A stretch of 64,000 bases of DNA, from positions 15,419,501 through 15,483,500 of the forward strand of contig NC_068971.1 in NCBI RefSeq assembly GCF_016808095.1, read 5' to 3'. This DNA is from Vigna angularis. Taxonomy: Eukaryota > Streptophyta > Magnoliopsida > Fabales > Fabaceae. Each line of letters starts with the position of its first letter. The first letter of the stretch is position 1. The translations under genes and the position numbers were made by a program. Positions 2,968 through 62,170 of this stretch are shown here, one piece after another. The notes below the pieces were generated by a model, which was not told the origin of the DNA, searched no databases, and was given only the letters and a program-made list of their open reading frames with translations.

Positions 2968-4065
2968 TGATAACGGTTGAAAATACCGTTATTTGATACT
3001 TAATTTTGATACTAAAAACACCCTTTATGACTTAGAAACTAGCTTAAAATCATGCTTTTGCTTTAGTTATGAGAATAAGAGAGTTGAAGGTGGAATTATT
3101 GGTTTTACGCTTTGTTTTCCTTGTTTTAACAGGAATTAGGATGGTTTGGAAGAAGAGTTGAAGTATCAAGGAGTTGGAACTCAGGAAAAGCTGGAAAATC
3201 ATCAGAGAGAAGGACCGCAGGTGGCGCCTGAGCGCCCTTTTGGAGGCCCTCAGCGCTGAAGTCTTGCCTTGGCACCTAAGCGCCCTTTTTGTGCCGCTGA
3301 GCTCCAGTTAGTACCGCAACTCACGCCTGGGCGCCCTTCCAAGGGCGTTGAGCGCAGATGCTTTCACAGTCACTCCTGGGCACCCTAAGTTTGGACATTG
3401 AGCGCCAGTCTCGTGGGCTTGGCCTTTTCATGTGCTCTATTTAAGGATTTGGACATCCTAGGCTTGGTATCTTTTGACAAAAGAGGCGCAAAAACACTCT
3501 CTTGGAGGCGGATTGGGAGGCAGAAGCTCTTATCTTCAACTTTTAGGGTTTTTCTATCTCATTCTTTTCCATTATTCATCTAGTTTCACCATGTCTATGG
3601 TGAACTAAACTTCAATTGTTGTTGGAGAAACGATGTAATCCTTTGAAACTCTCATTTATTGAAATGATTCTTATTTTAAATGCTTTGTTAATTAATTGTT
3701 AGGGTTTTTCCTCTATACTTTATGCTTGCTTTGTTTAACTCATTCATAGCATGATAATTGATTTTGTCGATATGGACACATACGGGAAAATCTAGATCTG
3801 GGGAATCTCTCCCAAAAGCAGTATTACCTAGACATAGGGATATGAGAGTTGGTTTCCTTTAAGCTTTTGTGCATTTATAATGCAGAATTAATTGCTAGGG
3901 AGACAAGACATTGTAAACTAGTAATTAAGGATAGGCTTTCTTCGTCGAGACATCGGGTCTAAAGTAAATTAGAAAGTGGCATTAACATTAATGAAAAAGA
4001 CAAATTCATAAATACATGAGAGTAGATAGGATAAGTCGAACCTCCAACAACATAATCATTCCATA
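2968..4065 (+). repeat. 3' LTR of the Athila-like element, truncated
   Basis: Starts TGATAACGG right after the polypurine tract. The part from about 3520 to 4065 is clearly homologous to 37316-37860, which shares the blocks GATATGGACACATACGG, CAAAAGCAGTATT and GAGACATCGGGT in the same order. The second copy continues past this point into a typical Athila LTR end, while this copy stops matching at about 4065, so the LTR is truncated by other DNA. Between about 3215 and 3410 it contains GC-rich, hairpin-forming repeats. Confidence 0.68.
3215..3410 (+). repeat. GC-rich palindromic repeat inside the LTR
   Basis: Four or so diverged copies of a GCGCC-T-GAGCGCCCTT word followed by a complementary AAGGGCG or GGCCCTCAGCGC arm. 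One perfect stem is CGCCCTT-CC-AAGGGCG (3331-3346). This block is strongly GC-rich in an AT-rich window and falls in the transcribed part of the LTR. Confidence 0.6.
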
Positions 4066-5059
4066 TTTTGTAATTGATTACAAGTCACAAAATGGCCTAC
4101 ACTTGTTTTAGGAATTCACCTAACTTGGTCATGACACCAACATTTGGTTTGTCCTCCACCATGGACTACCCAAACCTTAGTTTGGAAGCTCTACTCACAC
4201 TTCAACACTTAAAACATGTCTCATCCATTGAAGAAATATGAAAAAATTATGAAAAATGTCTTTGGTTAGTGGTGTTCCCACAGCTGGGTCCTGCTGAACA
4301 AGTTTTTGTACAAAACCATTTTTTTTCTTGTGTAATTGTTTTGCAGGGTTCTTGTAATCGAATACAAGTGTCAGAATACCCTGTACATTCCTGAAATCCA
4401 ATAAAACTTTTTCAATTCCTCAATCATATTGGACACTTTGTTTTTAACATTCCAAACAACAACTCATTTGACAATGCCAATAGGGAAAGGAATAACACTT
4501 CAAATAACATTCACAATAATGAATGTAAATCAAGATCCATCTTCATTAACATTAAAAAAAATGTTACAATACATTGTTTTGTTCATCTATGTACAATGAT
4601 CTTTTACTTTCTATAACAACTAAATACACAAATCACTCATTTTTCTCCCTATTTGCAGTGTACGGAGTTATAAGGGCTCTACTCTTGTATCGCTTTCTTG
4701 ATATGATCCTCATAAACCTCTATACAGTCAGTTGGTTGGTGTAAATGCCTCCCGAGCTTACAAAGGGAGTGTTCATGTGGGATTCTTCACGAGGCGTACT
4801 GTGTCCACCATCATCTTTATTCCTCTGTTTATTCTTCTCTTCAGCCAACTCTGCCTGTTTCTAATTCTTCAATTAGAGATTCTTGTTCCTCTAAAGTGCG
4901 CATAAAACTTTCTCTATGCTTTGTTTGTTTTTAGTTTTTCAGTGTTTGTTGGTCCTCTTTCTTAACCTCTCTAACTTTGCATGAAAATGTCTCCTTGCTT
5001 GAAGCACCAACATCATCACCCACCTGAAAATTAACAATAATTAACATAGTATACAAACA
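4066..5059 (-). pseudogene. Transposon-like gene remnant, 3' part (interrupted by a MULE)
   Basis: Between about 4680 and 5030 the minus strand shows short exon-like open stretches. One reads VGDDVGASSKETFSCK (about 4970-5024) after a good acceptor (TTTTCAG). Another contains STPREESHMNTPFVSSGG (about 4757-4810). The continuation lies on the other side of the MULE insertion, at 6884-7100. The composition resembles genes carried by plant CACTA or Ulp1-type transposons, but I cannot name the family. From 4066 to about 4670 I see no gene, only AT-rich sequence. Confidence 0.25.
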
Positions 5060-7119: not shown

Positions 7120-7512
7120 GTTCTTGACTTGGGGGTGTCTCAAAGGGTTAGACAGCAGAAGATGGTGTTCTTGCTACTAGTCTTGTTGTTTACTACCTAT
7201 ATTAGATTAGAGAGTTAGAGAGGTGTTTTATATTTTTGACGTGAGGTCTCTATAAAACCTTGTTGTAAAAACCTTGATCTTTATAGTGCATTTTCTTCTT
7301 GTGGTTTGAAGGACACTGGATGTAGGCTTGGTCGAACCAGTATAAAAACACAGCGTTTGAATTTTCTGATCCATACTCTCTTTTATTCATTCAATTAAGT
7401 TCTTTGCATATTCGATTAAGTTTCCGCTGCATTGTTAATATTTACCTTGTGATTCAAGAAAAGTGTAAAGGCAACACATTTTGTGAAAAAGATTTTATCA
7501 CCAATTCAACCC

Positions 7513-7570
<58 letters not shown>

Positions 7571-11263: not shown

Positions 11264-14200
11264 TCAATCTTGAGGAGTAGCCCCGTTTGTTGAGTCCATA
11301 GGCTCAGCTTCAACTGACTCATCTACCTTGTCCCCTTTCTTACCTATGCAAACAACCAAGCACTCTTATTTGTTGAGCCATTCAAAACAAGGAACATTAA
11401 AACCTTAGAAAGGTAAATTTTCTGTTCAATAACATAAAAGCAGGAGGCAAAACAACGTATAATAGAACAGCAACATGCCCTTCCCACCTACCTTTTTTCT
11501 TCTTTCCACCACCTTTCTTCTTTGTTTTCGTGCCCAAGGCTAGCCAGGCCTTGATATCAGGATCATCAATTGATTTTGTAGGCTGCATTTCTTGGAGTGG
11601 ATGAGATGTGACTCGATCAGACCCATTTGGCATTAACAAGACTGTGAATTTGATGTGTGCGACATAATCACCTGAAAAACAAACAAAATAATGCATGGCA
11701 AGGCTTAAATAAATGACAACTTGGTTATTTAGTTATGGTACTAGCCAAAGGAATTTTACCAGGCTTTTCGTGCAGAACAGGATATGGCTGCAAGAGTTCA
11801 TGGTTGACACATTCAACTAAACCCAGACGAGCTCTTTTCTCTTCCAAAGCTCTATTAAAATACAAATGAACTTTTAAGACAAACGAAGAGAATCAGAATT
11901 AGAACAACAGAGACAGTATTAAACATTGAAAGTAGCCGGGTTACCTAGCAGAGAATGGCATGATTGGAAACTTTTGACTTATCTCACTAAAAATAAACCT
12001 AGAAGCTTTCATCTTCAGATGATAACTCTTGTCAACAGCCCTCTTGTAAATAGTTGTCTGCTTCTCATCCAATAACTTAGGCTACAAGAGAAAAAAAAAT
12101 TACTTTATCAAGCATTTGATGTATCTTACTGGGTAACATGTTGATATAGTTATGCTACCTTGCCATCCCCTGTGCTTGTTACTATATCTATAGCATAAAC
12201 TTCATTCTCCTCAAACTCTGCTTCTTCAACCCTTGTGTCCGGATTAAACAAACTAAGCACAACTTTATTCCCATCAATAACAAACTGCTTCATTTGGTGA
12301 CTAAGAACACCTTCAACAATTTTACAGTCATAGGCAGCAGCAACCTTTTGAATTGCTTCAGTAACATCCTTGTTCTGTAAAAAATGAAGATCATTGATGT
12401 GCTCACATTAATTTCAATATTTTGCTAGTTAAAATAGCCAATAATTCTCACAATAATAGGAAATCAGTATTCCAAGCTTACTTTAAACTAGGCAACAGGG
12501 AGAAGAGGAAATCAATATCCTTTTAATCATTATAGTAAAGTTTTCCTTAGTCTAAAGGTTTTTATAAATGGTATGCATTCAATCCACACAAAACTGTTGC
12601 GCACTTTTATAGTTCTGCAATAGAAGTGAAAAGTATTGGTTTTAAAAGAGACTTATGTTGGCCATAATAGACATGAGAACTGACTACTTAAACGAGCACA
12701 AGTGTGAAACCATTTTTAGCCAACTCTAATATCAGCAACAGGGAAAAGAGGAAGTCAATATGGTACTGATCACCTCGGCAAAGTTGCCTTTAGTATAGTT
12801 TTAAACATTTGCAACAAATACACACAGAAATGACTAAAAAGAGAGGCAAATAATAGTTACATTGAAAAAGTATACTATAGGATTACACTCAGGTAAAAGA
12901 TACGTAATGGTTTTAACAGAATTATGTTGGCTACAAAGTGTGCTGACTATATAAATCAGCACAACTATAAAACTATTATCAGCCAACTCTAGTATCAGCA
13001 ACAGGGAAAAGAGGAAACCAATATGGTAATGATCACCTCGGCAAAGTTGCCTTTAGTATAGTTTTAAACATTTGCAACAAATACACACAGAAATGACTAA
13101 AAAGAGAGGCAAATAATAGTTACATTGAAAAAGTATACTATAGGATTACACTCGGGTAAAAGATACGTAATGGTTTTAACAGAATTATGTTGGCTACAAA
13201 GTGTGCTGACTATATAAATCAGCACAACTATAAAACTATTTTCAGCCAACTCTAGTATCAGCAACAGGGAAAAGAGGAAACCAATATGGTAATGATCACC
13301 TCGGCAAAGTTGCCTTTAGTATAGTTTTAAACATTTGCAACAAATACACACAGAAATGACTAAAAAGAGAGGCAAATAATAGTTACATTGAAAAAGTATA
13401 CTATAGGATTACACTCAGGTAAAAGATACGTAATGGTTTTAACAGAATTATGTTGGCTACAAAGTGTGCTGACTATATAAATCAGCACAACTATAAAACT
13501 ATTTTCAGCCAATTCTAGTATCAGCAACAGGGAAAAGAGGAAACCAATATGGTAATGATCACCTCGGCAAAGTTGCCTTTAGTATAGTTTTAAACATTTG
13601 CAACAAATACACACAGAAATGACTAAAAAGAGAGGCAAATAATAGTTACATTGAAAAAGTATACTATAGGATTACACTCAGGTAAAAGATACGTAATGGT
13701 TTTAACAGAATTATGTTGGCTACAAAGTGTGCTGACTATATAAATCAGCACAACTATAAAACTATTTTCAGCCAATTCTAGTATCAGCAACAGGGAAAAG
13801 AGGAAACCAATATGGTAATGATCACCTCGGCAAAGTTGCCTTAATTATACACATTTGATACAAATATCAAAATCAGAGCATAGACTGGAAAGGCTAAAAA
13901 GCGAAGCAAACTACAGTAACATCATCAGAAAATATATTAAGGGATGATCAGACAAGTAAAGAATAAGTAATGTATGTTGGCTATAATAAACAAGTGCACC
14001 GACAGTATAGATCAGCACAACCATGAAACAATTTTCAGCCAATTCTAGTATCAGAAACAGGGAAAAGAAGAAACCAATATGGAACCGATCACCTCAGCAA
14101 AGTTGCCTTTAATATAACCTTAAAAACTTTATACAAATATCAGAATGTAAGCAAAGATTGTCAAGTCTAAAAAGAGAGGCATATAGCAGTAACATGTTAC

Positions 14201-16297
14201 GTATATGGAATACATACAAGTAAAGAACAAGTACTAAGTAATGAATTTAGTACATAGTATGTTGGCTATACTAGACAAGCGCACTGACTGAATACATCAG
14301 TACAGCCATGAAAAAAATTTAGCCAATTCTAGTATCAGCAACAGGGAAAAGAGGAAACCAATATGGTACTGATTGCCTCGGCAAAGTTGCTTTTGTTATA
14401 ATTAATTTGCTACAAATGTTAAATTCCACATATACAGTCATGAATCTAAATAAAGAGACAATTACAGTACTGTTAGAAGTATATGAAGAGATTATGAGGT
14501 AAAGGATACCGCAAACCTTTAATATATAATCATAGTCAACAACCAAAAATGCCCCCAAAAACTTGAGAAAAAGTCATATTACACGTAAAAATGAAACAAC
14601 CCTCATGGTACATATATAGAATAGAGAACGAACGATTCTCCCTATCAGTGTAACTATGACAAAAAGAGGCATCATTGGAGTTAAACCATAGCCTATGATT
14701 TCTTCATCTTGTAGAGATCAGTTCATAAATTCACAATCCAATGTTATTATGGATCATAACAAGATAGTTGTACAGCGGATTTGGAAAGAAAAATCAAATT
14801 TATAGTTTTTGCAAAATTCATCAGAATAAAAATTAATTTATAAGGCAAACAAGTATTTGACGACAGTGCATGATAACATCCAACAAGAAGGTAAAATAAC
14901 ACAATGGAATAGAAAATCAACAATTCTCTGTCAGTGTAACTATGACAGAAACAGGCTTCATTGGAGTTCATCCATAGCCTATGATTTCTTCATCATACAG
15001 AGAAAAATTGATCAAATTACAATATAACATAAACCACGTTAGGATAATTTTAAGAGAACATGGTAAACTGGAAAGAAATCAGAGAGATATAAACCAATTT
15101 CAATCAGAACAAAATTAAATCAAGTCTTTGGAAGAAAAACCATAAATGACCTCTATCAGTGTAACTATGACAATTAAGCTTCATCGGAGTTAATCCATAG
15201 CTCAAGACAGTTTGCATCATTTAGAGATCAAAATCAACAAGGCACATAACAGAGCAATGAAATTCCTTCAAATAATACACATGAACCAAACAAATTTCTC
15301 TCCAACTTTAATGCTAACATGACACTTGAATTTACAACCATCAACGACAGGCACACTCAAGAAAGGCAATATGTAGTAAAATCCAAATCAACTCATTACA
15401 AAGATGCAACTACAATAAAAACTAGTTACAATTGATCACCTTCTTTCCTGGCCTGACAAGCCTCAAGGCCACCTCTGCAGCAGTATTTGCAGCAGCAATG
15501 ACATCTGCTGCCCTTCCTGTGATAGGACCTTCCTGAAGTACATGGGTGTGAGCCACAGCAGCAATGAAACCATCTATATGACAAGCCATATCACTGCACC
15601 AACCAAAGAAATAAACATTAACTTCTAAGTAATAACAAAAACCACAGACTCCATTTTCCCGCCACACATCACAAATTCATGATCTGAATATCTTACATTT
15701 TCAATATATCACCTTCTTCGAACACTGCCTCATCACTGGCTAGTGGAGAGAAATGGCAGACTACATTGTTTACTGATATACATGTAGGAAAAGCAACTCC
15801 TCTCTCAATCTTCCTCTTCACATTCTTGTACACATTTCCAGTTTGCCTAGACAAGGAACAACAACTATTAGCAAAATTCTACAAGTATAAAAAGAAATGA
15901 AAAACAAAAAATAAGAGATAACATGTACACAGGTTAAAATAGAAATAAATATAAGCTTACTCTCTAATATATGAATCCCCTTTCTCACAAATATCCACAA
16001 TCTTGGTCTTAGGTTTACATTCCGAAATAACAAGCTTCAAGGCCTCTGTAAATCGAAGAGGAATACAGAAACAAAACATCAAAATTTAAGAAAAACAGGA
16101 AATGTAAGCCGACTTCCCAAAAGAAAATTGTGTCCAATGTAAGCAACACCAAGACCCTAGAAAGAATTTTACAAACCAAAGATATTAAAAAGTGTGAGGA
16201 ACATACTGTTAACGATCTCAGCAGCTGTCTTGTATTTGGTGACCACTTCGGCAGAAGAAAGATCCAACTCCTTCTCCTCCCTTTCCTCGTCGGACAT
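11264..16297 (-). CDS. EBP1: EBP1 (PA2G4 homologue), copy 1, nine coding exons
   Basis: Coding exons on the minus strand: 16297-16207, 16045-15961, 15846-15697, 15593-15440, 12374-12159, 12081-11945, 11851-11760, 11671-11492 and 11343-11264. They total 1185 nt, encoding 394 residues, and every intron is GT-AG. The protein starts [15 protein letters not shown] and has the pita-bread fold sequence of type II methionine aminopeptidases. It keeps D110 (KIDMACHID), but Ala occupies the place of the second metal-ligand Asp (position 121), as expected of the enzymatically inactive PA2G4/EBP1 family. It ends in a Lys-rich tail ([13 protein letters not shown], about 355-368) of the sort used for RNA binding and nucleolar localisation. 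Plant EBP1 promotes growth and ribosome biogenesis. The 394-residue length equals that of human PA2G4. A close paralogue lies at 31292-35797 on the same strand. Intron 4 is unusually long and holds snoRNA-like genes. Confidence 0.95.
12653..12789 (-). ncRNA. Box H/ACA snoRNA-like unit 1 (EBP1 copy 1)
   Basis: Most 3' unit of the array. The 5' hairpin with its pocket strands TTTGCC and TTTTCCCT is intact, the H box reads ATATTA, and the lower stem of hairpin 2 (TTGGC/GCCAA) and the ACA box remain. The upper stem of hairpin 2 is degraded, so the 3' guide is doubtful. Confidence 0.55.
12922..13052 (-). ncRNA. Box H/ACA snoRNA-like unit 2 (EBP1 copy 1)
   Basis: Reading the minus strand: lower stem GGCAAC/GTTGCT encloses an internal loop with strands TTTGCC and TTTTCCCT. 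Above it are stem GAGG/CCTC and a short ACCA/TGGT hairpin. The H box ATACTA (ANANNA) lies 14 nt after the pocket. Hairpin 2 has outer stem TTGGCT/AGCCAA and a perfect upper stem GTGCTGA/TCAGCAC, and then ACA and a three-nucleotide tail. About 131 nt, the usual length. Pocket strand TTTGCC is complementary to GGCAAA and TTTCCCT pairs (one G-U) with AGGGAAG. Together they frame the U of AGGGAAG-UC-GGCAAA in 25S rRNA, the geometry expected for pseudouridylation. The rRNA sequence is from memory; expression is not shown. Confidence 0.72.
13185..13315 (-). ncRNA. Box H/ACA snoRNA-like unit 3 (EBP1 copy 1)
   Basis: Almost identical to the unit 263 bp to its left; all stems, the H box, the ACA box and both 5'-pocket strands are unchanged. 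Confidence 0.7.
13448..13578 (-). ncRNA. Box H/ACA snoRNA-like unit 4 (EBP1 copy 1)
   Basis: Member of the homogenised set; differs mainly by AATTC for AACTC next to the lower stem of hairpin 2. Guide pockets and boxes intact. Confidence 0.7.
13711..13841 (-). ncRNA. Box H/ACA snoRNA-like unit 5 (EBP1 copy 1)
   Basis: Last of the near-identical units. The flanking spacer changes right after its 5' end (TTAATTATAC instead of TTTAGTATAG), marking the edge of the recent amplification. Confidence 0.7.
13972..14108 (-). ncRNA. Box H/ACA snoRNA-like unit 6 (EBP1 copy 1)
   Basis: Diverged unit with the longer 3' pocket strand (CTTGTTTATTAT before AGCCAACA). The 5' pocket has TTTGCT instead of TTTGCC and the lower stem carries one mismatch (GTTTCT), so function is less certain. 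Confidence 0.5.
14257..14391 (-). ncRNA. Box H/ACA snoRNA-like unit 7 (EBP1 copy 1)
   Basis: First unit in transcription order. The 5' pocket is intact, the H box is ATACTA, and ACA is present. The 3' pocket strand CTTGTCTAGTAT resembles the units of EBP1 copy 2 rather than its own neighbours. The upper stem of hairpin 2 is shortened to ACTGA/TCAGT. Confidence 0.55.
14637..14717 (-). ncRNA. Box C/D snoRNA-like unit c (EBP1 copy 1)
   Basis: On the minus strand: C-like box AGATGAA, D box CTGA (complement of 14645-14648), and guide GTCATAGTTACA just upstream of the D box. The terminal stem is weak (TCTC-type pairing), making this the least convincing of the three units. Confidence 0.6.
14924..15004 (-). 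ncRNA. Box C/D snoRNA-like unit b (EBP1 copy 1)
   Basis: Minus strand: terminal stem TTCTCTG pairs perfectly with CAGAGAA. The C box TGATGA is at 14995-14990 and the D box CTGA at 14934-14931. The guide GTCATAGTTAC before D is complementary to GTAACTATGAC, found in the universally conserved 25S/28S segment GAGTAACTATGACTC. By the D-plus-5 rule it should direct 2'-O-methylation of the second A of GTAAC. A C'-like box (AATGAAG) lies mid-unit. About 81 nt, normal for the class. Confidence 0.8.
15148..15229 (-). ncRNA. Box C/D snoRNA-like unit a (EBP1 copy 1)
   Basis: Minus strand: terminal stem GATCTCTA/TAGAGGTC with one G-T pair, C-like box ATGATGC, C' CGATGAAG, guide TTGTCATAGTTACA and D box CTGA. 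It shares the 25S guide with the neighbouring unit, but its internal sequence (AAACTGTCTTGAGC) is different, so the two are diverged duplicates. Confidence 0.72.
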
Positions 16298-16593: not shown

Positions 16594-16690
16594 AACTAGG
16601 GTTACACCCTGAGGTTGCTTTGGCTTAAATAGGATTTTTCACTTTCATTGCAACAATACAAGCTTCGTTCGAGTAGGGTTTTTCTTACAC
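16594..16690 (-). promoter_or_regulatory. Core promoter of EBP1 copy 1: TATA-like box and teloboxes
   Basis: On the minus strand: telobox AAACCCTA (16681-16674), TATA-like CTATTTAAG (16632-16624), then AACCCTAG (16603-16596) near the expected transcript start. Teloboxes are typical of plant ribosomal-protein and ribosome-biogenesis promoters. The same set occurs upstream of EBP1 copy 2. Confidence 0.6.
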
Positions 16691-31291: not shown

Positions 31292-34200
31292 CTAATCTTG
31301 AGAAGTGGCCCCATTTGTTGAGTCCATAGGCTCAGCTTCAGCTGACTCATCTACCTTGTCCCCTTTCTTACCTGTGATAGAAAAAACACAAGCATAGCTA
31401 TTTGTTGAGCCATTCAACACAAGGAATAATGAAATTTTAGATATGTAAATGTTGTGTTCAATAATATAAAAGTATGATACACAAGGAGTAATATAACAGC
31501 AACAAACTCTTCCAGCTACCTTTTTTCTTCTTTCCACCACCCTTTTTCTTTGTTTTTGTGCCCAAGGCTAGCCAGGCCTTAATATCAGGATCATCTATTG
31601 TTTTTGTAGGCTGCAATTCTTGGAGTGGATGAGATGTGACCCGATCCGACCCGTTTGGCATTAACAAGACTGTGAATTTGATATGTGCAACATAATCACC
31701 TGAAAAACAATTATACAAAACCTTAAATAAATGGCACTTTGGTGATGTGATTTTGCTACCAGCCAAAGGCTTTTTTTACCTGGCTTTTCATGCAGAACAG
31801 GATATGGCTGCAATAGCTCATGGTTGACACATTCAACTAAACCCAGACGAGCTCTTTTCTCTTCCAAAGCCCTGTACAAAACAAACGAAATTTTAAGAGA
31901 AATGGAAAGGATCAGAATTAGAACACCAGTAGAAGCAGTGTAAAAATTTAAAGGTTACCTAGCAGAAAATGGCATAATTGGAAATTTCTGACTGATTTCA
32001 CTGAAGATGAACCTAGATGCTTTCATCTTCAAGTGATAACTCTTATCAACAGCCCTCTTATAGATGGTTGTCTGCTTCTCATCCAACAACTTGGGCTGCA
32101 AGACAAGGGGAATTAATTTCTTGCGTATGGTATGATATACCATTCTATTAAATATGTTCATATAACTAACCCACCTTGCCATCCCCTGTGCTTGTTACTA
32201 TATCAATTGCATAAACTTCGTTCTCCTCAAACTCTGCTTCATCAACCCTTGTTTCCGGATTAGACAAACTGAGCACAACCTTATTCCCATCAATAACAAA
32301 CTGCTTCATTTGGTGGCTGAGAACACCCTCAACAATTTTACAGTCATAGGCAGCAGCAACCTTTTGAATTGCTTCAGTTACATCCTTGTTCTGTAAAAAA
32401 TAATTTGATTAAAAAACAGAATGAGCATCTCCTTCTAAAAATAAGGTCATTTATGGATATGAATAATGGGTTGAATATGCCGTTTCCATCTTTTCTATTT
32501 CTATAAACAATAGTGATAAGTAATAATTTCTATAGGGTATTATTATGTTGGCTATACTAGACAAGTGTACTGCAATAAAAATATAAACAAGCACAACCAT
32601 GAAACTATTTTCAGTCAATTCTAGTAAACCGATATGATATTGATCACCTCAGCAAAGTTGCCTTTGTTAAAGCTTTAATGTTGCTACAAATATTAGAATC
32701 AAGATAGATATACACAGACAAGACCAACAAGAGAGGCCAATTACAATAACATTAAAAGAATAATAATAGGATTAAAGACAGGTAAATAATAATTAATGTT
32801 TTAAATAGAGCACGCTGTTGGCTATACTAGACAAGAGCACTGACGGTATATAATCAGCACAACCATGAAACTATTCTCAGCCAATTCCTAGTATCGGCAA
32901 CAGGGAAAAGAGGAAACCACTTTAGTACTGATCACCTCGGCAAAGTTGCCTTACAAATTTAATATTTTGCTAAAATATCAGAATGCAGACATACATTGAC
33001 AACGCTAACAAGAGAGGCAAATTACAGTAACATAAAGATGTATATTAAGGCATTATGTTTTGTTGGCTATACTAGACAGGTGTGCTGATTATATAAATCA
33101 GCACAGCATGAATCTATTTTCAGCCAATTCTAGTATCAGCAACAGGGAAAAGAGGAAACCAATTTGTACTGATCACCTCGGCAAAGTTGCCTTACAAATT
33201 TAATTTTTTGCTAAAAAATCAGAATTCAGACATACATTAACAACGCTAACAATAGAGGCAAATTACAGTAACATAAAGATGTATATTAAGGCACTATGTT
33301 TTATTGGCTATACTAGACAGGTGTGCTGAATATATAAATCAGCACAGCATGAATCTATTTTCAGCCAATTCTAGTATCAGCAAGAAGGAAAAGAGGAAAC
33401 CAATTTGGTACTGATCACCTCGGCAAAGTTGCCTTACAAATTTAATTTTTAGCTAAAAAATCAGAATGCAGATATATATGGACAACGCTAACAAGAGAGG
33501 CAAATTACAGTAACAAAAATGTTTATTAAAGCACTATGTTTTGTTGGCTATACCAGGCGAGTGTGCTGACTATATAAATCAGCACAGCATGAAACTATTT
33601 CCAGCCAATTCTAGTATCAGCAACAGGGAAAAGAGGAAACCAATTTGGTATTGATCACCTCGGCAAAGTTGCCTTACAAATTTATATTTTGCTAAAAAAT
33701 CAGAATTCACACATACATTGACAACGCTAACAGGAGAGGCAAATTACAGAAACATAAAAATGTTTATTAAGGCACTATGTTTTGTTGGCTATGCTAGACA
33801 GGTGTGCTGACTATATAAATCAGCACAGCATGAAACTATTTCCAGCCAATTCTAGTATCAGCAACAGGGAAAAGAGGAAACCAATTTGGTACTGATCACC
33901 TTGGCAAAGTTGCCTTTAATATCAAGACATTAAACAGGTGAAGAAAACCTTAAACCTTTAACATAACCATATTTAGCATAAAAAATAGAAACTGGCATAT
34001 TTCACATTACATGAACCATCCTAGATTGCACATATTCTTTCCTGGTGTACTAATCAGTCAGTCAGGTATATATAGAACAGAGTATGAACAACTCTATCAG
34101 TGTAACTATGACAGAAATAGGCATCATTGAACTTTATCCATAGCCTACGATCTCGTCATCAAATAGAGATAAGTTCATACAGTTCAATATGATATTATGG

Positions 34201-35797
34201 ACCAGAGTAAGACATTTTGAAGAGGTGATATGGAGAGAACAATGAAATCCCGTTCATAATTTTTCTAAATTTCATCCCAGTTAAAAAGTGTTTCATGACA
34301 GTGGATGACAGGATACATCATGCAGGTAAAATAACAAAAAAATGCAAACAAAATCAACAATTCTCTGTCAGTGTAACTATGACAGAAACAGGCTTCATTG
34401 GAATTTATCCGTAGCCAATAATTTCTTCATCATACAGAGATAAATTGTTCAAGAGCAATATATTATAAATCAAATCAAGATAATTTTAAGAAAACGTAGA
34501 AAAGTGGAAAAATTTATATTCAGAGTTTTTAGCAACGATTTCAATCACAATAACAAATCAAGTCTTCAAAAAAATTCAATAATAACATTCATTATACATG
34601 ACACAGTACCAACACTACCAGTAAAAAAATAAATGACCTCTATCAGTGTAACTATGACAATTAAGCTTCACCGGAGTTTATCCATAGCTCATAACAGTTT
34701 ACATCATTTAGAGATCAAAATCAACATGGCACACACTAAGGCAAAGAAGAACCTTCCATCAAGCAACACAGATAACCAACGTAATTTCTCTACAAATTAA
34801 ACAAGGTTAACTGCTTATATATTATATGAACTTACACCTATCAAACAAAGGCACAGTAAAAAAGGGTAACATGTTGTGAAACAAAAGCAAACCACCAATG
34901 AAATACAACCACAATAAAAACTAGTTACAAATGTTTACCTTCTTTCCTGGTCTGACAAGCCGCAAGGCCACCTCTGCAGCAGTATTTGCAGCGGCAATGA
35001 CATCGGCTGCCCTTCCTGTAACAGGACCATCCTGAAGTACATGGGTGTGAGCCACCGCAGCAATGAAACCATCTATATGACAAGCCATGTCACTGCAAAC
35101 AACCAATGAAACAATCTTCAATGTCCAAATAATAGCAAAAAACACAGAATCCATTTCCCCACAAATAATCACAAATTCAAGCACTGAAAATCTTACATTT
35201 TCAATATATCACCTTCTTCCAAAACTGCCTCGTCACTGGCTAGTGGGGAGAAATGGCAAACAACGTTGTTTACTGATAAACATGTTGGAAAAGCAACACC
35301 TCTCTCAATCTTCCTCTTCACATTCTTGTACACATTTCCAGTTTGTCTACACAGACAAAAAAGCTAACCCTATGAGAAAAATTCTACAAATATATATATA
35401 AAAAAAAAAAACTCAAAGGCAATGCTCTATGGTATAAGAATAAACAAAAGCTTACTCTCTGATATATGAATCCCCTTTCTCACAAATGTCCACAATTTTT
35501 GTCTTAGGTTTGCATTCTGAAATAACTAACCTCAAGGCCTCTGAAAAAACAGCAATGATGTTTTTGAAATCGTATAAATGTATATATAAAGAACGGAACT
35601 TCAATTGGATTCCAACAAAAAGAAAAATGCATGGACAAGGTAGAAAATAACAAAAATCTAAACAGTTTGAGAAAACAAAAAGACATTGAGAAAGTGAGAA
35701 ACACACTATTAACGATCTCAGCAGCTGTCTTGTATTTCGTTACCACTTCGGCAGAAGAGAGATCCAACTCCTTCTCCTCCCTTTCTTCGTCCGACAT
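31292..35797 (-). CDS. EBP1: EBP1 (PA2G4 homologue), copy 2, nine coding exons
   Basis: Coding exons on the minus strand: 35797-35707, 35540-35456, 35346-35197, 35092-34939, 32390-32175, 32095-31959, 31871-31780, 31699-31520 and 31371-31292. Total 1185 nt, 394 residues, all GT-AG introns, and every exon is equal in length to copy 1. The first 30 residues are identical to copy 1. Visible substitutions are mild: KALRL for KALKL, LQDGPV for [14 protein letters not shown] for [14 protein letters not shown] for ESVEAE, and GATSQD for GATPQD. No stop or frameshift is seen, so both copies look functional. D110 is kept and position 121 is Ala, as in copy 1. The exon 1 donor is GTGTGT instead of GTATGT. 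Intron 4 (32391-34938) also carries snoRNA-like units. Confidence 0.95.
32543..32663 (-). ncRNA. Degenerate H/ACA-like unit 1 (EBP1 copy 2)
   Basis: Lacks the segment that holds the right strand of the 5' pocket (no AACAGGGAAAAGAGG), so the 5' guide is lost. The ACA end and part of hairpin 2 remain. Probably a dead copy. Confidence 0.4.
32813..32951 (-). ncRNA. Box H/ACA snoRNA-like unit 2 (EBP1 copy 2)
   Basis: 5' pocket strands TTTGCC and TTTTCCCT, lower stem and H box ATACTA intact; ends CCAACAGCG. Hairpin 2 upper stem is GTGCTGA with a slightly altered partner. Confidence 0.62.
33058..33192 (-). ncRNA. Box H/ACA snoRNA-like unit 3 (EBP1 copy 2)
   Basis: Complete unit: both hairpins, H box ATACTA, ACA plus AAA tail. 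The 3' pocket right strand is CCTGTCTAGTAT, longer than in the homogenised units of copy 1. Confidence 0.68.
33299..33434 (-). ncRNA. H/ACA-like unit 4 with altered ACA box (EBP1 copy 2)
   Basis: The ACA position reads ATA (AGCCAATAAAA) and the 5' pocket strand is TTTTCCTT instead of TTTTCCCT. Both changes hit key elements, so this copy is probably inactive. Confidence 0.45.
33539..33674 (-). ncRNA. Box H/ACA snoRNA-like unit 5 (EBP1 copy 2)
   Basis: Complete; substitutions are confined to the right strand of the 3' pocket (CTCGCCTGGTAT) and the loop of hairpin 1. Confidence 0.65.
33780..33915 (-). ncRNA. Box H/ACA snoRNA-like unit 6 (EBP1 copy 2)
   Basis: Complete apart from AAGG for GAGG at the base of the upper stem of hairpin 1, which leaves one mismatch. 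H and ACA boxes intact. Confidence 0.6.
34092..34168 (-). ncRNA. Box C/D snoRNA-like unit c (EBP1 copy 2)
   Basis: Terminal stem CTCTA/TAGAG, perfect C box TGATGA (34161-34156), D box CTGA (34100-34097) and the guide GTCATAGTTAC. Its C box is better than that of the equivalent unit in copy 1 (AGATGAA). Confidence 0.75.
34361..34441 (-). ncRNA. Box C/D snoRNA-like unit b (EBP1 copy 2)
   Basis: Terminal stem of CTCTG/CAGAG or longer, C box TGATGA (34432-34427), D box CTGA (34371-34368) and the same 25S guide. Closely similar to 14924-15004; the differences lie mostly between C and C' (AATTATTGGCTACGG versus AATCATAGGCTATGG), which may affect a second guide. Confidence 0.78.
34635..34716 (-). 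ncRNA. Box C/D snoRNA-like unit a (EBP1 copy 2)
   Basis: Terminal stem GATCTCTA/TAGAGGTC, C-like box ATGATGT, D box CTGA (34646-34643), guide TTGTCATAGTTACA. The C' box (GGTGAAG) is weaker than in the equivalent unit of copy 1 (CGATGAAG). Confidence 0.7.
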
Positions 35798-36084: not shown

Positions 36085-36180
36085 CAACTAGGGTTACAGC
36101 CACAGAGACAGCTTTGGCTTATATAGGATTTTTCATTTTCGTAAGAATACAAACCTTTTGAGTAGGGTTTTTACACTCCA
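36085..36180 (-). promoter_or_regulatory. Core promoter of EBP1 copy 2: TATA box and teloboxes
   Basis: Minus strand: AAACCCTA (36170-36163), TATA box CTATATAA (36126-36119) and AACCCTAG (36095-36088). The spacing equals that of copy 1, but the TATA box is a better match here. Similarity between the two gene flanks is lost soon after this block. Confidence 0.65.
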
Positions 36181-41679: not shown

Positions 41680-41995
41680 GTTCTTTGGGCCTTTTGACGT
41701 CCGACGTTCCCTCGATGTTTATGCGGGTGACGTCTATGTAGACGTCCGTTGTGTCAGGCCGGACGTTTATATAGACGTCCGTGGTGTGAGGCCAGACATT
41801 TATATAGACGTCCGCTATGTCAGGCCGGACGTTTACATAGACGTCCGCTGTGAACCCTCGGACGTTCATATACACGTCCGACGCCTCTCCCCCTGGACGT
41901 CCACTTGGCTGAATTGTTAGTGGTAGGGTCTGGGGGGTTGGACGTCCGTTAGTGCACTGCCGGACGTCTATAGACGTCCGAATATGCACTAACAG
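41680..41995. repeat. Left subterminal ACGTCC repeats of the CACTA element
   Basis: Short-spaced copies of GACGTCCG or GGACGTTTA in both orientations, for example around TATAGACGTCCG. In En/Spm the subterminal repeats bind the element's regulatory protein; the same role is inferred here. An apparent minus-strand reading frame over this stretch (VYINVRPDT repeats) is just translated repeat. Confidence 0.75.
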
Positions 41996-42213: not shown

Positions 42214-45157
42214 CTAACTCCATCTTTGCAGAAGATAAGCGGTCCACTCCTGCCTTATCTGTTTAATTGTGTCCTCTGGAATAGGCGATGTACTCTTGAA
42301 GCGCTGCAAAATTCAAGAAAGATTCATTATGGTTTCATATATGTTGTAGATGAATTTGATTTGTAATGTATTGAAGGTATACATCATTACCTCATTCCAG
42401 TCATCTGTAATGACAGCTCGAATGATGATCTTAATCCAACACATCACATAGAAGCCACATTCACATGAATCTAGCTGCTGGTTACACTAAAATGACAAAC
42501 TAAATAGTTAAGAATTTAGATCATTCAATAACATAGAAAATGAATTAGAAACTATAAATGACTTACAACCTTTGGATACAAAATTTGAACCAGTTGACCA
42601 CGAGATTTACCAATAACTCTGTACAGATTGAAAACACAAAGTATAATTAATATGACTATATTTATCATAAAAGTTGAAGGTGAACATCAAATTCAAAGTC
42701 ATTTTTGGAGAAACACTTACCCTTGAAGCATGGTTCTCAATTCATTTTTCATCCTCCTGTGCAACGAACAAAACCATATAATTTTACATTGTTTGGGAAT
42801 GATGACCATCAGCTGCCAGTGCGACCTATCACGAAGGACAAATAGTTATTCAACTAATTAAGGAAACTATAATAATAAACTGACCACATATAACAGCACC
42901 TACGCCTCAATGTATGGCACAAGGTATACGTCTCTTTTTGACTCATCCATCCATGTTTGCAAATAATGTTGTCTGTTTTGAAGTGTGTTACTAGACGGTT
43001 GAATGGTCTGAGGTTCAACAAATCTGTACATGGAAGACCGACCTTGGTTTACAACGATTGTGTCCATGTACCTAAAACAACAAAGTTAAGTTGTTAGAAA
43101 CTATAACAATGTAAATAAAAGTAATATGAAAGACCAAATTGACTATCTTACATGCACCACAGCTGAATGATGGAAATATTCAACATCCGGTCTCCCCCAA
43201 TCATCTCCAATGCATCAGATAATGTGATATAAACTGGCACATGTGGGGGAAGACCAAATACTCTCAAATCCCAGTATAGTTCAAATGGTGCTTTCTTCAA
43301 CCTGGGTAATTTTGTCATTAGCTTTGATAGAGGATCATCCTCCGCTTCATCCATGTCATCATCTTCATGTATGACTGTATCATGAATCGGCTGCTTCTGA
43401 GGATGTGTGAACTGAAGATAAGAATTTACGTCAAAGCGTTATCAACAATTATTTGTAGAATAAACATAGAAATACTAAGTTAATTATACCTGTGGAGTAG
43501 CGATGTGGGACATGATTAATGCTCTAGGCCAGGCAATAAATGATCCTATGGCCTCCCCCACAAAGTTAATTTCTGGAGTGGGTACAGGCACCTGAGCCTG
43601 GGGATCCCGAACCTCGTCAATGGTCACACGCACGTGCTGGGGTAATATGGCAACACCATGAATGGTCTGCCCTCCCTCAAGCACTCGTCCGACAGCCACA
43701 ATGCGTGGGGGATCCCCATCAACCAACAACTCATATTGACCGCTATACTGAGTGGGGTCTACAGTAGAGCATGATCCTCTAGTGCTGACACGAGGTGGTG
43801 TGGGAGTGTCATCGGCCCCCATGTTGCCTTGCATCATGGACTGCAGTTTTTCTTCAATCGCTCTTTGTATTTGTTTTTGTTCTTGTAGCTGCTCCATGAA
43901 TCGTTGCTCCATTGATCTCATGCTTTGGTTGAGTCTTTCCTCCCACTGAAGATCCATCTGCCTCAGTGTCTCCTGACTCATTGATTGGGGGGTTTTTTGT
44001 GTAGGGCCAAAGTAGTCTTCTTTCCACAACAATTTCAAATCATCAATTAAAGGTGCTAAGTAAACATCAATGTCATTTCCAGGTTGTCTAGGACCCGATA
44101 TCATCATGGACAACATCACATATTTTCTCTTCATGCACAACGAAGGAGAAAGATTGTAAATCATCAACATAACTGGCCACGAACTGTGTTTGCTACTTAA
44201 GTTTCCATAAGGATTCATACCATCAGTTGCAAGTGCAAGCCTTAAGTTTCTTGGATCTGCACCAAATTCAAGGAATTTGTCATCAATCTTTTTCCAATGT
44301 GGAGAATCAGCAGGGTGTCGAAGAAGATTATCGCACTTTCTTTCGTCAGAGTGCCATTTAAGGTTCTTTGCATCTTCTTTAACAGAGAACATACGTTTGA
44401 ACCTAGGTATTATAGGCAAATACCACATCACCTTAGCAGGTGCACCATCATTACCTTCATTACCAGTGACTCTGTCAGATTTCTTTTTAAAACGGGATAA
44501 ACCACATGTTGGACAATACTTTAACGAAGCAAACTCCTTTGTGTACAAAACACAATCATTAGGACAAGCATGTATCTTTTGATATTCAAGACCCATTGGA
44601 CATAAAAATTTTTTGGCGTCGTAATTACGAATAGGTAGAGTATTATTTTCTGGAAGCATCTCCTTCAACAACTCCAACAACTTAGTGAAACTTTTATCGG
44701 TCCATCCATTCCTTGCTTTTAAACTAAACAACTTTAAAGTTGAAGACAGACGTGTAAAGTTCGAGCATCCTGGGAACAACGGTTGCTCTGAATCATTAAT
44801 AAGAGAATCATACAAATTAGCCCTTCCAAAATTATCTTCACCGACAGAACGCATCATGTCCTCTAAATGGTCACTCATCCATTCTTCCACATAATCCGTT
44901 CCTCGTGACGTGGTAGGCTGCTCCAGTACTTCTCCATGCCAAGTCCAAACGGTATAAGTCCTCGTTATGCCGTACATGAATAGATGGTCACACACATTGC
45001 CTAAGTCTTGCAGTATTTGATTAAGACAACGCACACAAGGACAAAAATATGTCCCGTTGACAGACTTAGCATTTTGTTCAACGTATTGCAAGAACTTTGA
45101 AACACCCTTCTCATATTCTTCACTAATGCGACGTTCGTTCATCCAGCTTCGATCCAT
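42214..45157 (-). CDS. CACTA TNP2-type transposase fused to a Ulp1-like protease
   Basis: Seven coding exons on the minus strand: 45157-43490, 43411-43152, 43071-42904, 42825-42721, 42618-42570, 42486-42391 and 42303-42214. They total 2436 nt (811 residues), with all junctions GT-AG and in phase. Residues 4-80 form the transposase-associated domain (CPCVRC at 39-44). About 165-378 is the start of the Transposase_21 domain (CPNDC, CPTCG, ATDGMNPYGN, NDIDVYLAPL), which stops after LKLLW. A Gln/Met-rich coiled stretch follows (about 395-450), then a linker. The end is a Ulp1/C48-like domain: SHWQL with H701, Q754 and C760 in QQLDSCECGFYVM. The expected Asp position (718) is Cys. The missing half of Transposase_21 suggests an internal deletion that fused two element genes; such a protein is unlikely to catalyse transposition alone. 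Confidence 0.85.
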
Positions 45158-46014: not shown

Positions 46015-47345
46015 ATATAGATAGACGTCCGGCACTCTGGGCCACGGACGTCTATAATATTATAGACGTCCGGTTCGTCACTAATATGACGTCTTTGTGG
46101 ATTTAAAAATGATATTCGCGGGTGGGTTTAGACGTCCGTCCTGGGAGGGCTCGGACGTCTATAATATTATAAACGTCCTTTTGAGGGGGACAAACGTCTA
46201 CTACACTAAACAACTGAACGTTTCAACTCCCCATGTCAGCCCTTAAACGTCCGTCCTGGGAGGGCTCGGATGTCTATAATATTATAAACGTCCTTTTGAG
46301 GGGGACGAACGTCTACAACGTTTCAACTCCCCATGTCAGCCCTTAAACGTCTGTCCTGGGAGGGCTCAGATGTCTATAATATTATAAACGTTCGTGTGAG
46401 GGGGACGGACGTCTACGAGGCTGACACAACTGAACGTTTCAATTCCCCATGTCAGGACCTTAAACGTCCGTCCTCGGAGGGCCCTGACGTCTATAATATT
46501 ATAAACGTCCGACCCCCCATTTTGGACGTTTAAGGGGCTGAAGACAATCAAATCTCCAACCACCCTGTCAGCACATTAAACGTCCGATATGGGGGGCTAG
46601 ACGTTTATAATATTATAGACGTCAGTCCCCCTCACACGGACGTTTAAGGGCTGAAATGGGGACTGAAACGTTCAGTTGTTCAGCCTAGTAAACGTCCGTC
46701 TTGACCCTGGACGGACATTCAAGGGCTGACATGGGACTGAAACGTTCAGTTGTTCAGCCTAGTATACGTCCGTCTCGACCAAGGACGGACGTTTAAGGGC
46801 TGACATGAGGACTTGAAAACGTTCACTTGTTCAGCCTATTAAACGTCTGTCCCCCTCACACGGACGTTCATAACATTATAGACGTCCGTCTCGACCAAGG
46901 ACGGACGTTTAAGGGCTGACATGGGTACTTGAAAACGTTCACTTGTTCAGCCTATTAAACGTCCGTCCCCCTCACACGGACGTTCATAACATTATAGACG
47001 TCCGTCTCGACCAAGGACGGACGTTTAAGGGCTGACATGGGTACTTGAAAACATTCACTTGTTCAGCCTATTAAACGTCCGTCCCCCTCACACGGACGTT
47101 CATAACATTATAGACGTCCGTCTCGACCAAGGACGGACGTTTAAGGGCTGACATGGGTACTTGAAACGTTCACTTGTTCAGCCTATTAAACGTCCATCCC
47201 CCTACGACGGACGTCTATAATATTATAAACGTCCGGCTCGACCAAGGACGAACGTCTCGAGTTTCACTTATTTACGAATATGCCACCGGTCAATTATATA
47301 CGTTGGGACTTTTGTGGACAGACGTCTATTGGGGGACGTTAAAAG
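46015..47345. repeat. Right subterminal repeat array of the CACTA element
   Basis: Over 1.3 kb of repeats built on AACGTCCGTC and GACGGACGTTT arms. From 46881 a unit of 116 bp repeats nearly perfectly (GACGTCCGTCTCGACCAAGG starts at 46881, 46997 and 47113). Each unit carries two inverted ACGTCCG pairs and GTTCACTTGTTCAGCC. The earlier part (46130-46560) has a different, longer variant with CTATAATATTATA. Confidence 0.9.
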
Positions 47346-59431: not shown

Positions 59432-62170
59432 GATGGACTTCTTGGCCCAATGATAATAATACCTTAAACGTTGGTCTAATTATGGCCCAACTTTGATATA
59501 GCGGGTGGACCAAACGATACTCAATGTTGACCGTTCGGTCTTGGGCCTATACCATACATATGCCCCCAAGTCTGAGTTAACTATAGTTAATATAGGACTT
59601 ATGATAAGGAATTTGGGGAGGTTGCGTTCGGTGTTCTCTGAGCTTTCGTTTTTCCTTACGTCGGGGAACATATTCTAGGAGTTTATGATTCCGTAGATCT
59701 ATAAGTCTTGGGTGCGAGTTCATGGAGGACGTTTCTCATAGAGCAGTTTACTCAAAGTTGGCTGAGGGGTTCACCTTGCACACTAAACCACAATCGAATT
59801 TTAACTGGAAAAAACAAGAATATCGATAGTTTAGACAAACCTGTTCTAAAGGTTGGATTAGAGTCCACACTGAACTTCTCAGGAGGTCGGCTTCGTGAGA
59901 ACTTCCTGGTAAGAGGGCTTTACCTCTAGGCTTCGTGGCTTTGTCCTAGGAGTTCTTCCTAAGGAACGAACTTTACCGTTCGACTTTGCACTAGGAGTTC
60001 TTGGAGAACTTCCTAGTGGGAGGGATTTACCTCTCGACTTTGTGACTTCGACCTAGGAGTTCTTCCTAGGGAACGAGCTTTACCATTCGGCTTTGCACTA
60101 GGTGTTCCTAGAGAACTTCCTAGTGGGAGGGCTTTACCTCTCGGATTCGTGACTTTGACCTAGGAGTTCTTCCTAGGGAAGAGACTTTACCGTTCGACTT
60201 TGCACTAGGAGTTCCTGGAAAACTTCCTAGCGAGAGGGCTTTACCTCTTGGATTTGTGACTTCTACCTAGGAGTTCTTCGTAGGGAATGAGCTTTACCAT
60301 TCGACTTTGCACTAGGAGTTCCTGGAGATCTTCCTAGCGAGAGGGCTTTACCTCTTGGCTTTGTGACTTTGACCTAAGAGTTCTTCCTAGGGAACGGGCT
60401 TTACCGTTCGGCTTTGCACTAGGAGTTCCTGGAGATCTTCCTAGCGAGAGGGCTTTACCTCTTGGCTTGGTGACTTTGACCTAAGAGTTCTTCCTAGGGA
60501 ACGGGCTTTACCGTTCGGCTTTGCATTAGGAGTTCCTAGAGAACTTCCTAGTGAGAGGGTTTACCTCTTGGCTTTGTGACTTTGACCTAGGAGTTCATCA
60601 TAGGGAACGGGCTTTACCGTTCGGCTGCACTAGGAGTTCCTGGAGAACTTCCTAGTGAGAGGACTTTACCTCTCGTCTTATGTACTCCTCTTGGCCAAGT
60701 GGTTTGCAGGATCCTATCACCTGCACTGAAAAAATATAACAACTCAAATTTTACATGGTGGAAAAAGAGTAGCCAAACAAACCAATGTATTAATGTCAAA
60801 ACAGGTTATGTTATAAGGCTGGTCGGCCAAGCAAATAAGACCGCTCGATCTTCGGTGGAATGTTTGCAAGTCAAACTGAGCAAACCACATTAATATGTGT
60901 CTCGGATGAGCTGTAGGTGTTTTATGCTTTGTTATCCTGTAAGTAATATTTTTCTGCATAAACTTTTCTCCGATCATATGGATAAGAACGATTGGCGTGA
61001 GGCCATGAAAAGCCGAGCAGTTGAGGCCACCTGATGGCCGAATGGCCGAATACCTACGAGGCTGATTGGCCGAATACTTGTGAGGCTGAATGGCCAAACA
61101 ATTGAATGGTTGAGCACTTGATGCCAAATTTGGCTAAGTGATGAGTCGTCATTGGACCCTGAATAAATCTTGAACAATATTATAATATTGAATTAAAATA
61201 TTTAAATTAAATCATTCAGCAAGGAAGAATAATTATCAAAATATATGTATTTTTAAACAAAGCCGAATGCACGTAGGTGTTGAAGCTATTTTTATGTTGT
61301 TGGTGAGTCTTTTCGTAGGTGATGCATCAATCATAGAGGTTGCTTTTATATGTTGAGATGGATAATCATGAATATTCCAAATGGTTTAGAAGTATAAATT
61401 AAATGATATAATATAAAATGAATTTAAGATGGTTATATCAAAATATTTATCTGTAAAGCCGTAGAAGCTTGCTGACGTTGATGGTGATAGTTTCTTCAAT
61501 CGGGATCAATATGTAGGGGCCTGGTCGACATGATGATGCTGAGACTGCGTCCTTGTCTGGTTCATTGCGGTTTCAGCGGGATGTCGTTCGACCCTACGGT
61601 GGACGCCAAAATGTTTCGATAGGGATTTGTGTAGGACCGAGAGACGTACCTTTCTGTCGTAATCTTCTTGTTTTCCAATGCTTGAGTTGTGTATACCGCT
61701 CGGTTGGATTTCGGAGGCCGTTCGCTTGTACTCTTGATGGGGTGAGGTACCTGCAAAAGGTGCTCCGACACTCAAGTTAGGCGTGTGTTTGAAGAGCTTC
61801 TGCTCACAATAGAATATTCAGTGAATTGTTATCATTGTTGAGTATTTGGACGTAGTGGAGAGTGCATAGAACGTACCTGGCATTTGGCTCTGATCTTATA
61901 TTTATAAGTACATAATCAAATGAAAACAAACTTATCTGAAGATTCGGTCGATTATCAATATCTTTAATCAAATATCTTTGGTTATCAATATCTTCAATCA
62001 GATATCTTTGGTTATTTTAACCGTTTGGTTATTTTAACCGTCTGCTGGACTTCTTGACCCAATGATAATAATACCTTAAACGCTAATCTAATTATGGTCC
62101 AACTTTGATATAGGAGGTGGACCAAATGGTACTCAGCGTTGACAGTTCGGTCCTAGGCCTATAACATACA
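59432..62170 (-). mobile_element. LARD-like non-coding LTR element, minus orientation
   Basis: On the minus strand: 5' LTR 62170-61612 (TGTATGTTATAGG...CGAAACA, TG...CA ends), then a primer-binding-like TTTTGGCGTCCACCGTAGGG (61611-61592), resembling the TGGCGCCCACCGTGGGG sites of Tat-type gypsy elements. An internal region of about 2.05 kb without coding capacity follows, then a polypurine tract (CTTGGGGGCATA, 59572-59561). The 3' LTR starts TGTATGGTATAGG at 59560 and is truncated after about 129 bp (59432). The two LTR starts match closely. This fits a large retrotransposon derivative that depends on others for movement. Confidence 0.7.
59870..60690 (-). repeat. 107-bp tandem repeat in the LARD-like element
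   Basis: The word GCACTAGG (or GCATTAGG) recurs at 59989, 60095, 60202, 60309, 60416, 60523 and 60627, giving spacings of 106, 107, 107, 107, 107 and 104 bp. Each unit contains ACTTCCTAG, GGCTTTACC twice and CCTAGGAGTTCTTCCTAGGG. About seven and a half units. Confidence 0.9.

Follow-up and report, generated by a model that had tools for sequence, protein, structure and literature searches.

We analysed a 64-kb stretch of plant DNA (Vigna angularis, contig NC_068971.1, positions 15,419,501 to 15,483,500; 33% GC), called the window below, and found in it two neighbouring EBP1 genes whose fourth introns carry sense-strand units that resemble small nucleolar RNA (snoRNA) genes. The best explanation, to which we assign a probability of about 0.87, is a mixed C/D and H/ACA intronic polycistronic snoRNA cluster in intron 4 of each EBP1 gene. 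This reading is carried by the anatomy of the sequence, the host intron, the pattern of conservation and the complementarity to ribosomal RNA (rRNA), all of which are observed directly. Judged from the sequence, the presence of intronic H/ACA snoRNA genes in EBP1 is well supported because of the box order, the 15-nt spacing, a 5' pocket that is conserved and has a plausible target in 25S, the sub-threshold resemblance to snoR144 and the higher conservation of the units than of the spacers.

The two hosts lie on the minus strand, at 11264..16297 (copy 1) and 31292..35797 (copy 2). Each is intact, with nine coding exons and a product of 394 amino acids; the splice sites (GT-AG ends) were predicted from the sequence pattern. 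The copy 1 protein matches TIGR00495 (ErbB3-binding protein EBP1) at 571.5 bits against a cut-off of 430, which agrees with the first-pass annotation of the gene. Plant EBP1 proteins were the top-scoring named homologues among the 120 listed of 3272 for this query, with identities of 94% for Vigna mungo, 94% for Phaseolus vulgaris and 94% for Glycine max over 92% of the query. The two copies are 97% identical in protein, with a synonymous divergence (Ks) of 0.36 and a nonsynonymous divergence (Ka) of 0.014. Intron 4 measures 3065 nt in copy 1 (12375..15439, minus strand) and 2548 nt in copy 2 (32391..34938, minus strand), and all of the units described below lie within these two introns in the sense (minus) orientation. 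The remaining seven introns are 77-161 nt long in copy 1 and 79-166 nt in copy 2. Upstream, a telo-box AAACCCTA was found on the minus strand of each gene, at 16674..16681 (377 nt 5' of the ATG of copy 1) and at 36163..36170 (366 nt 5' of the ATG of copy 2), and the 7-mer AACCCTA is also present, at 16597-16603 and 36089-36095.

The H/ACA-like units number seven in copy 1 (12653-14393) and six in copy 2 (32543-33916), all on the host strand. The first-pass annotation had described the seven in copy 1 as an array of units with the order hairpin, H box, hairpin, ACA and three nucleotides; the units and their order were confirmed, and their length measured 132-138 nt instead of about 131-137 nt. 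Three C/D units, a decayed eighth unit and the full cluster in copy 2 had been missed. The stems that it had listed (GGCAAC/GTTGCT, TTGGCT/AGCCAA and GTGCTGA/TCAGCAC) hold for the four units at 12922..13053, 13185..13316, 13448..13579 and 13711..13842, which repeat with a 263-bp period (the last two are identical, and the first shows the 6-nt deletion in the 3' pocket that is common to all four), and vary in the others. Two of the seven units are weaker: 12653..12790, in which hairpin 2 has diverged and its upper stem is weakened, and 13972..14109, in which the lower stem of hairpin 1 is weakened. The seventh, 14257..14393, has a longer 3' pocket, as in copy 2. The copy 2 units are located at 32813..32952, 33058..33193, 33299..33435 (lower stem of hairpin 1 weakened), 33539..33675 and 33780..33916, together with a pseudo-unit at 32543..32664, whose first box-H base is altered.

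In copy 1, box H reads ATACTA in six of the seven units and ATATTA in one, and ACA followed by three nucleotides terminates all seven. Across both introns, 11 of the 13 units have both boxes (ANANNA and ACA) intact. Trained on 12 units (all but 32543), and hence not independent of them, a covariance model recovers all 13 together with a relic on the minus strand at 12420-12548 (E 0.0074); the next matches in the window have E values of at least 0.2. This relic is the decayed eighth unit of copy 1 (about 12420-12557), which also appears as a member of a repeat family (D3, 12472-12557, 63%).

Each intron 4 also contains three box C/D units (regions 14639-15228 and 34090-34715), which lie between its 5' splice site and its H/ACA array and are all on the minus strand: 14641..14717, 14924..15004 and 15149..15228 in copy 1, and 34090..34170, 34361..34441 and 34636..34715 in copy 2. 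They have the composition of C/D RNAs, namely a terminal stem, a C box of the RUGAUGA type, a CUGA D box (6/6) and a guide next to D; in 14924..15004, for example, these are the stem TCTCTGT/ACAGAGA, the C box ATGATGA and the D box CTGA. The guide with its D box, GTCATAGTTACA-CTGA, is invariant in all six, and the distance from C to D is 61-62 nt. The guide is complementary to 25S GUAACUAUGAC, and its exact 11-nt complement is present as GTAACTATGAC in a eukaryote large-subunit rRNA (LSU), a length of match that was reached by only 4 of 5000 random 12-mers of the window. The 2'-O-methylation site of a C/D guide is counted five bases from the D box. This count leads to the second A of AGUAACUAUGAC as the predicted methylation site, which we take to be yeast Am2256, the snR63/SNORD46 site.

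H/ACA RNAs select their target through a pocket with bipartite pairing, 14-16 nt from the box. In the 5' hairpin of the EBP1 units, such a pocket is formed by TTTGCC and TTTTCCCT; wherever the 3' guide element is present (12 units), TTTTCCCT starts 15 nt before box H. Both guide elements occur in 12 of the 13 units, and they pair with 25S over 7 + 6 positions in two arms. Among these 12 units, the 5' pocket departs from the consensus in only 2 of 168 alignment cells, both C to T (one each in 13972 and 33299), and by hand inspection both changes retain a G-U pair with the target. The 3' pocket, on the other hand, departs in 41 of 319 cells and has 29 further gap cells, including the 6-nt deletion of the four 263-bp units. 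The difference between the pockets gives a Fisher p of 2e-6, which is indicative only because the units are related to each other.

The predicted target of the 5' pocket is the U in 25S AAGGGAAG-U-CGGCAAA. The search covered a 411-nt plant-like 25S piece, one eukaryote LSU and one plant-like 18S, and comprised many tests. This U was the top site in both LSUs, and it was matched or exceeded by 4 of 200 Markov-resampled sequences for the 25S piece and by 23 of 200 for the eukaryote LSU. No site stood out for the 5' pocket in the plant-like 18S (116 of 200 resampled sequences were as good), and for the 3' pocket, searched in four forms against the three rRNAs, no target was better than 20 of 200. 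Given the many tests and the limited set of rRNA, we propose, rather than claim as proven, that the guide at work is the 5' hairpin, the only one of the two that looks like a constrained guide.

Could the H/ACA RNA instead be an orphan, or be directed at another target such as a small nuclear RNA (snRNA), an mRNA or its own host intron, with the 25S match incidental? The longer LSU search was only moderately above background (23/200), the search was confined to rRNA and, for plant 25S, to the 411-nt piece, and the pocket of snoR144 itself reaches a higher score (31.7 vs 27.1) at another U of the plant 25S piece. However, the same U comes first in two LSUs, the pairing engages both arms, and the only changes in the pocket keep it. 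We regard this alternative as quite unlikely. An equation of the target with a known human pseudouridine was dropped, since the position numbers behind it come from two different numbering schemes (PMC9941101). The plant-like rRNA used in the search is itself misplaced in the records: the 25S piece (record positions about 3991-4401) sits in a Mangrovicoccus contig and the 18S (1-1764) is registered as an Acinetobacter plasmid. No 25S or 18S patterns were found in viral contigs, and further 25S searches in plasmids and phages returned bacterial sequence or nothing; a comparison of one H/ACA unit with plasmid sequences gave no match.

RNAalifold on 12 H/ACA units returned the two-hairpin fold unprompted, at -30.5 kcal/mol, although other structures were of minimum free energy (MFE) in the six copy 2 units and in 13972. 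In a comparison with 300 dinucleotide shuffles, which scored energy only and not hairpin shape, hairpin 1 was within the lowest 3% in 10 of the 13 units (not 13972, 32543 and 33780) and hairpin 2 within the lowest 1% in 9 (not 12653, 13972, 32543 and 32813). For copy 1, this means that hairpin 1 beats at least 292 of the 300 shuffles in six of the seven units (13972 fails, with 71 as low), and hairpin 2 beats at least 298 in five (12653 and 13972 fail, with 35 and 39 as low). When whole units were folded without constraint (12 units, 12653 left out), the classical form was obtained in five, namely 14257 and the four 263-bp units. A separate observation concerns the box-H region, which can pair with the unit's own 3' pocket TCTAGTAT over 8/8 nt in 14257-14393, 32813-32952 (one G-U), 33058-33193 and 33299-33435, and over 7/8 nt in five other units (in 12653 at another spot); in the four 263-bp units, the 6-nt deletion removed this pairing (5/8 left).

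Comparison with Rfam placed snoR144 (H/ACA) and SNORD46 (C/D) as the best families by bits on the host strand. A sub-threshold resemblance to snoR144 was listed for 9 of the 13 H/ACA units at E up to 10 or 5. The EBP1 units and snoR144 (RF02412) have in common the 5' hairpin elements AAGGCAAC, UUUGCCGAG, CUUUU-CCC and GUUGC, whereas the 3' hairpin of snoR144 is unlike theirs. Since the snoR144 pocket prefers a different U, a common target with the EBP1 units is not demonstrated. For the C/D units, the guide and D box UGUCAUAGUUACACUGA are identical to those of SNORD46 and the C box is similar, but the remainder of the RNA has diverged from both SNORD46 and snR63; the latter (RF01259) reaches 22 bits (E 0.005) against a gathering score of 50.

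Several results weigh against a snoRNA cluster, or against the integrity of single units. A scan of the whole 64-kb window with Rfam at the gathering thresholds gave 0 matches: snoR144 attains at most 26.3 bits (E 0.033, at 32813..32952) against 100, and SNORD46 (RF00218) at most 26 bits (E 0.01, at 14924..15004) against 40. Covariation gives no support, with only 1 of 32 pairs changing on both sides and 237-311 of 500 shuffles doing equally well; the paired cells of the H/ACA alignment are 95.5% compatible with the fold, compared with 95.3% in shuffles. In the whole-unit MFE structure of all six copy 2 units, the 3' pocket (TCTAGTAT or a near variant) is paired with the box-H region ATACTAGA, and unit 13972 misfolds in another way. 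At the level of boxes, unit 33299 carries ATA for ACA, and unit 32543 has lost the 3' guide element and part of hairpin 1 by deletion. Among the C/D units, the C box is an exact RTGATGA in only two of six, has one mismatch in three and is weak (AGATGAA) in 14641-14717, the D box of which is CTGA at 14648-14645. Furthermore, plant ribosomal-protein and ribosome-biogenesis genes share two promoter elements with polycistronic snoRNA genes, the telo-box AAACCCTA and site II (PMC4660826). The telo-box upstream of both EBP1 genes speaks for a snoRNA cluster, but site II (TGGGCC/T, both strands) was not found in the ~800 nt upstream of either gene.

Could the arrays, then, be mere tandem repeats in an intron that have no function as RNA, with the H/ACA likeness arising by chance? 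Tandem Repeats Finder reports both H/ACA arrays as long tandem repeats, and the uninformative covariation and the lack of gathering matches are in line with this. Nevertheless, chance would have to account at once for the boxes, the 15-nt spacing, the complementarity to 25S, the likeness to snoR144 and SNORD46 and the constraint between the copies, as well as for a second snoRNA class within the same intron. We consider this very improbable.

The comparison of the two EBP1 copies separates units from spacers. In multiple alignments, the H/ACA units are 87% identical between the copies and the spacers 63%; in pairwise alignments, 40 unrelated control stretches of similar length average 46% identity (59.5% maximum), and the seven small introns are 54-78% identical. 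The earlier claim that conservation stops at the snoRNA ends therefore stands between the copies, but it does not stand inside copy 1, where the recent duplication of a 263-bp block has left the four spacers of 131 nt within 12791-13710 with 99-100% identity; the four units of this block are 98-100% identical to each other. For two of the C/D units the counterpart in the other copy is evident and the order is kept, 14924 with 34361 (92.6%) and 15149 with 34636 (93.8%); the 70-nt flanks of the three best pairs are only 44-77% identical. Therefore, at least two C/D genes are older than the EBP1 duplication. The third C/D unit, 14641, is 83.1% identical to 34090, hardly above its identity to 34361 (81.8%).

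In a tree of the H/ACA units, one group holds the four 263-bp units from copy 1 (support 90/92) and another holds four of the copy 2 units (95/94), with no resolved position for the remaining five; by the rule of the tool, 1 of the 9 inner branches has good support and 5 stay open. With this modest support, the tree suggests older inherited H/ACA units, followed by a later, separate burst in each EBP1 gene. Gene conversion within each copy would give a similar tree pattern. One may ask whether the number of units matters at all. The cluster could be real while most units of the arrays are unselected tandem duplicates of one working gene, generated by unequal crossing-over, with the extras neutral or decaying. 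This possibility, which is compatible with a functional cluster and concerns only the number of units, falls somewhat short of an even chance in our estimate. It would explain the near-identity of the 263-bp units and their spacers, the relic at 12420-12548, the pseudo-unit at 32543-32664 and the weakened units 12653, 13972 and 33299. It does not readily explain why even older units that have diverged still retain the 5' pocket, although the 3' pocket and the spacers drift. A selective scenario, in which one and the same H/ACA gene was amplified separately in intron 4 of both paralogs after the EBP1 duplication (Ks about 0.36) by dosage selection for one 25S pseudouridine guide, with snoRNA supply scaling with the expression of a growth-linked, ribosome-binding protein, appears unlikely to us.

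How would a mixed EBP1 cluster work? From the sequence we infer transcription, processing, ribonucleoprotein (RNP) assembly and both modifications, as follows. The cluster in intron 4 would be transcribed together with the EBP1 pre-mRNA, and the intron would then be cut and trimmed into separate H/ACA and C/D snoRNPs, the H/ACA RNAs being expected, as stable RNAs of this class, to bind dyskerin/CBF5, NHP2, NOP10 and GAR1. Plant clusters are described as being freed by endonucleolytic cuts and exonucleolytic trimming, the intronic ones from spliced introns (PMC4660826). The H/ACA RNA would be a one-guide RNA, in which TTTGCC and TTTTCCCT of the 5' hairpin direct pseudouridylation at the U of 25S AAGGGAAG-U-CGGCAAA and the 3' hairpin serves chiefly to complete the particle, and the C/D RNA would direct 2'-O-methylation at the second A of 25S AGUAA-CUAUGAC. 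Both predicted 25S sites presumably flank ES27L, one on each side, and EBP1 is reported to bind ES27L in animals. A bolder and more speculative idea is therefore that the EBP1 protein and the guides hosted by its gene act on a shared neighbourhood of the ribosome. A paper on Arabidopsis lists the EBP1 protein as a partner of a long intergenic noncoding RNA that contains a snoRNA; EBP1 figures in that paper as a protein partner and not as a snoRNA host (PMC9175010).

The EBP1 clusters seem to be a further case of a known type. Plant snoRNA clusters are described as encoding both classes, and genes for ribosomal proteins or for ribosome biogenesis make up most of the intronic hosts (PMC2780460, PMC4660826, PMC8351944); intronic clusters were first described in rice and are also known from Drosophila and Chlamydomonas (PMC2780460, PMC4660826, PMC8351944; for Chlamydomonas, a report listed in PMC5122169). 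It is also stated that plant snoRNAs are independent, in introns or in intronic clusters, with few intronic examples known (PMC8351944), that intronic snoRNAs are few in plants (PMC5122169), and that in Arabidopsis the snoRNAs lie mainly in intergenic clusters and not in introns (PMC9175010). Since intronic plant clusters have been published and are called few, the kind is known but uncommon. The view of the first-pass annotation that such an array is unusual thus holds for the rarity of intronic plant snoRNAs and fails for clusters in ribosome-related plant genes, which have been described (PMC4660826, PMC2780460, PMC8351944); its statement that none had been described for EBP1 agrees with our search of the open-licence literature (main text only), which found no report of EBP1 as a snoRNA host. 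No mention of snoR144 was found in the open-licence literature.

The EBP1 clusters resemble plant intronic clusters in containing both classes, as sense units, in one intron of a ribosome-related host. They may differ from the rice and Drosophila clusters in that a single H/ACA species recurs six to seven times and a single C/D species three times, in two paralogous hosts that lie side by side. The apparent parallel bursts in two sister genes seem to be their most notable feature. Spread over about 22 kb, the 19 units of the two introns provide a dense example of candidate snoRNA genes multiplying inside a host intron of sister genes, and of candidates that Rfam gathering thresholds miss in this plant. 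They could be used to measure the trade-off of copy number, decay and guide constraint, and they name testable 25S targets.

The rest of the window contains transposon pieces and tandem repeats. A 557-amino-acid open reading frame (ORF) at 43484-45157 (minus strand) matches Pfam Transposase_21 (tnp2 family, 162 bits, first half of the profile) and Transpos_assoc and is a piece of a CACTA-type transposon, and a 139-amino-acid ORF at 27901-28320 matches Pfam hAT-like_RNase-H at 49.6 bits, a hAT transposase piece; these CACTA-like and hAT-like ORFs are no part of the snoRNA finding. A 107-bp tandem unit is repeated 7.3 times with 90% matches at 59897-60673. At 46217-47255, words such as ACGTCCG / GGACGGACGTT abound in tandem repeats whose periods are 74-117 bp, and a 33-bp array with similar GACGT words is located at 41729-41880. 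Finally, a 60-nt near-pure run of C (96% matches) at 7510-7569 is possibly an assembly oddity.
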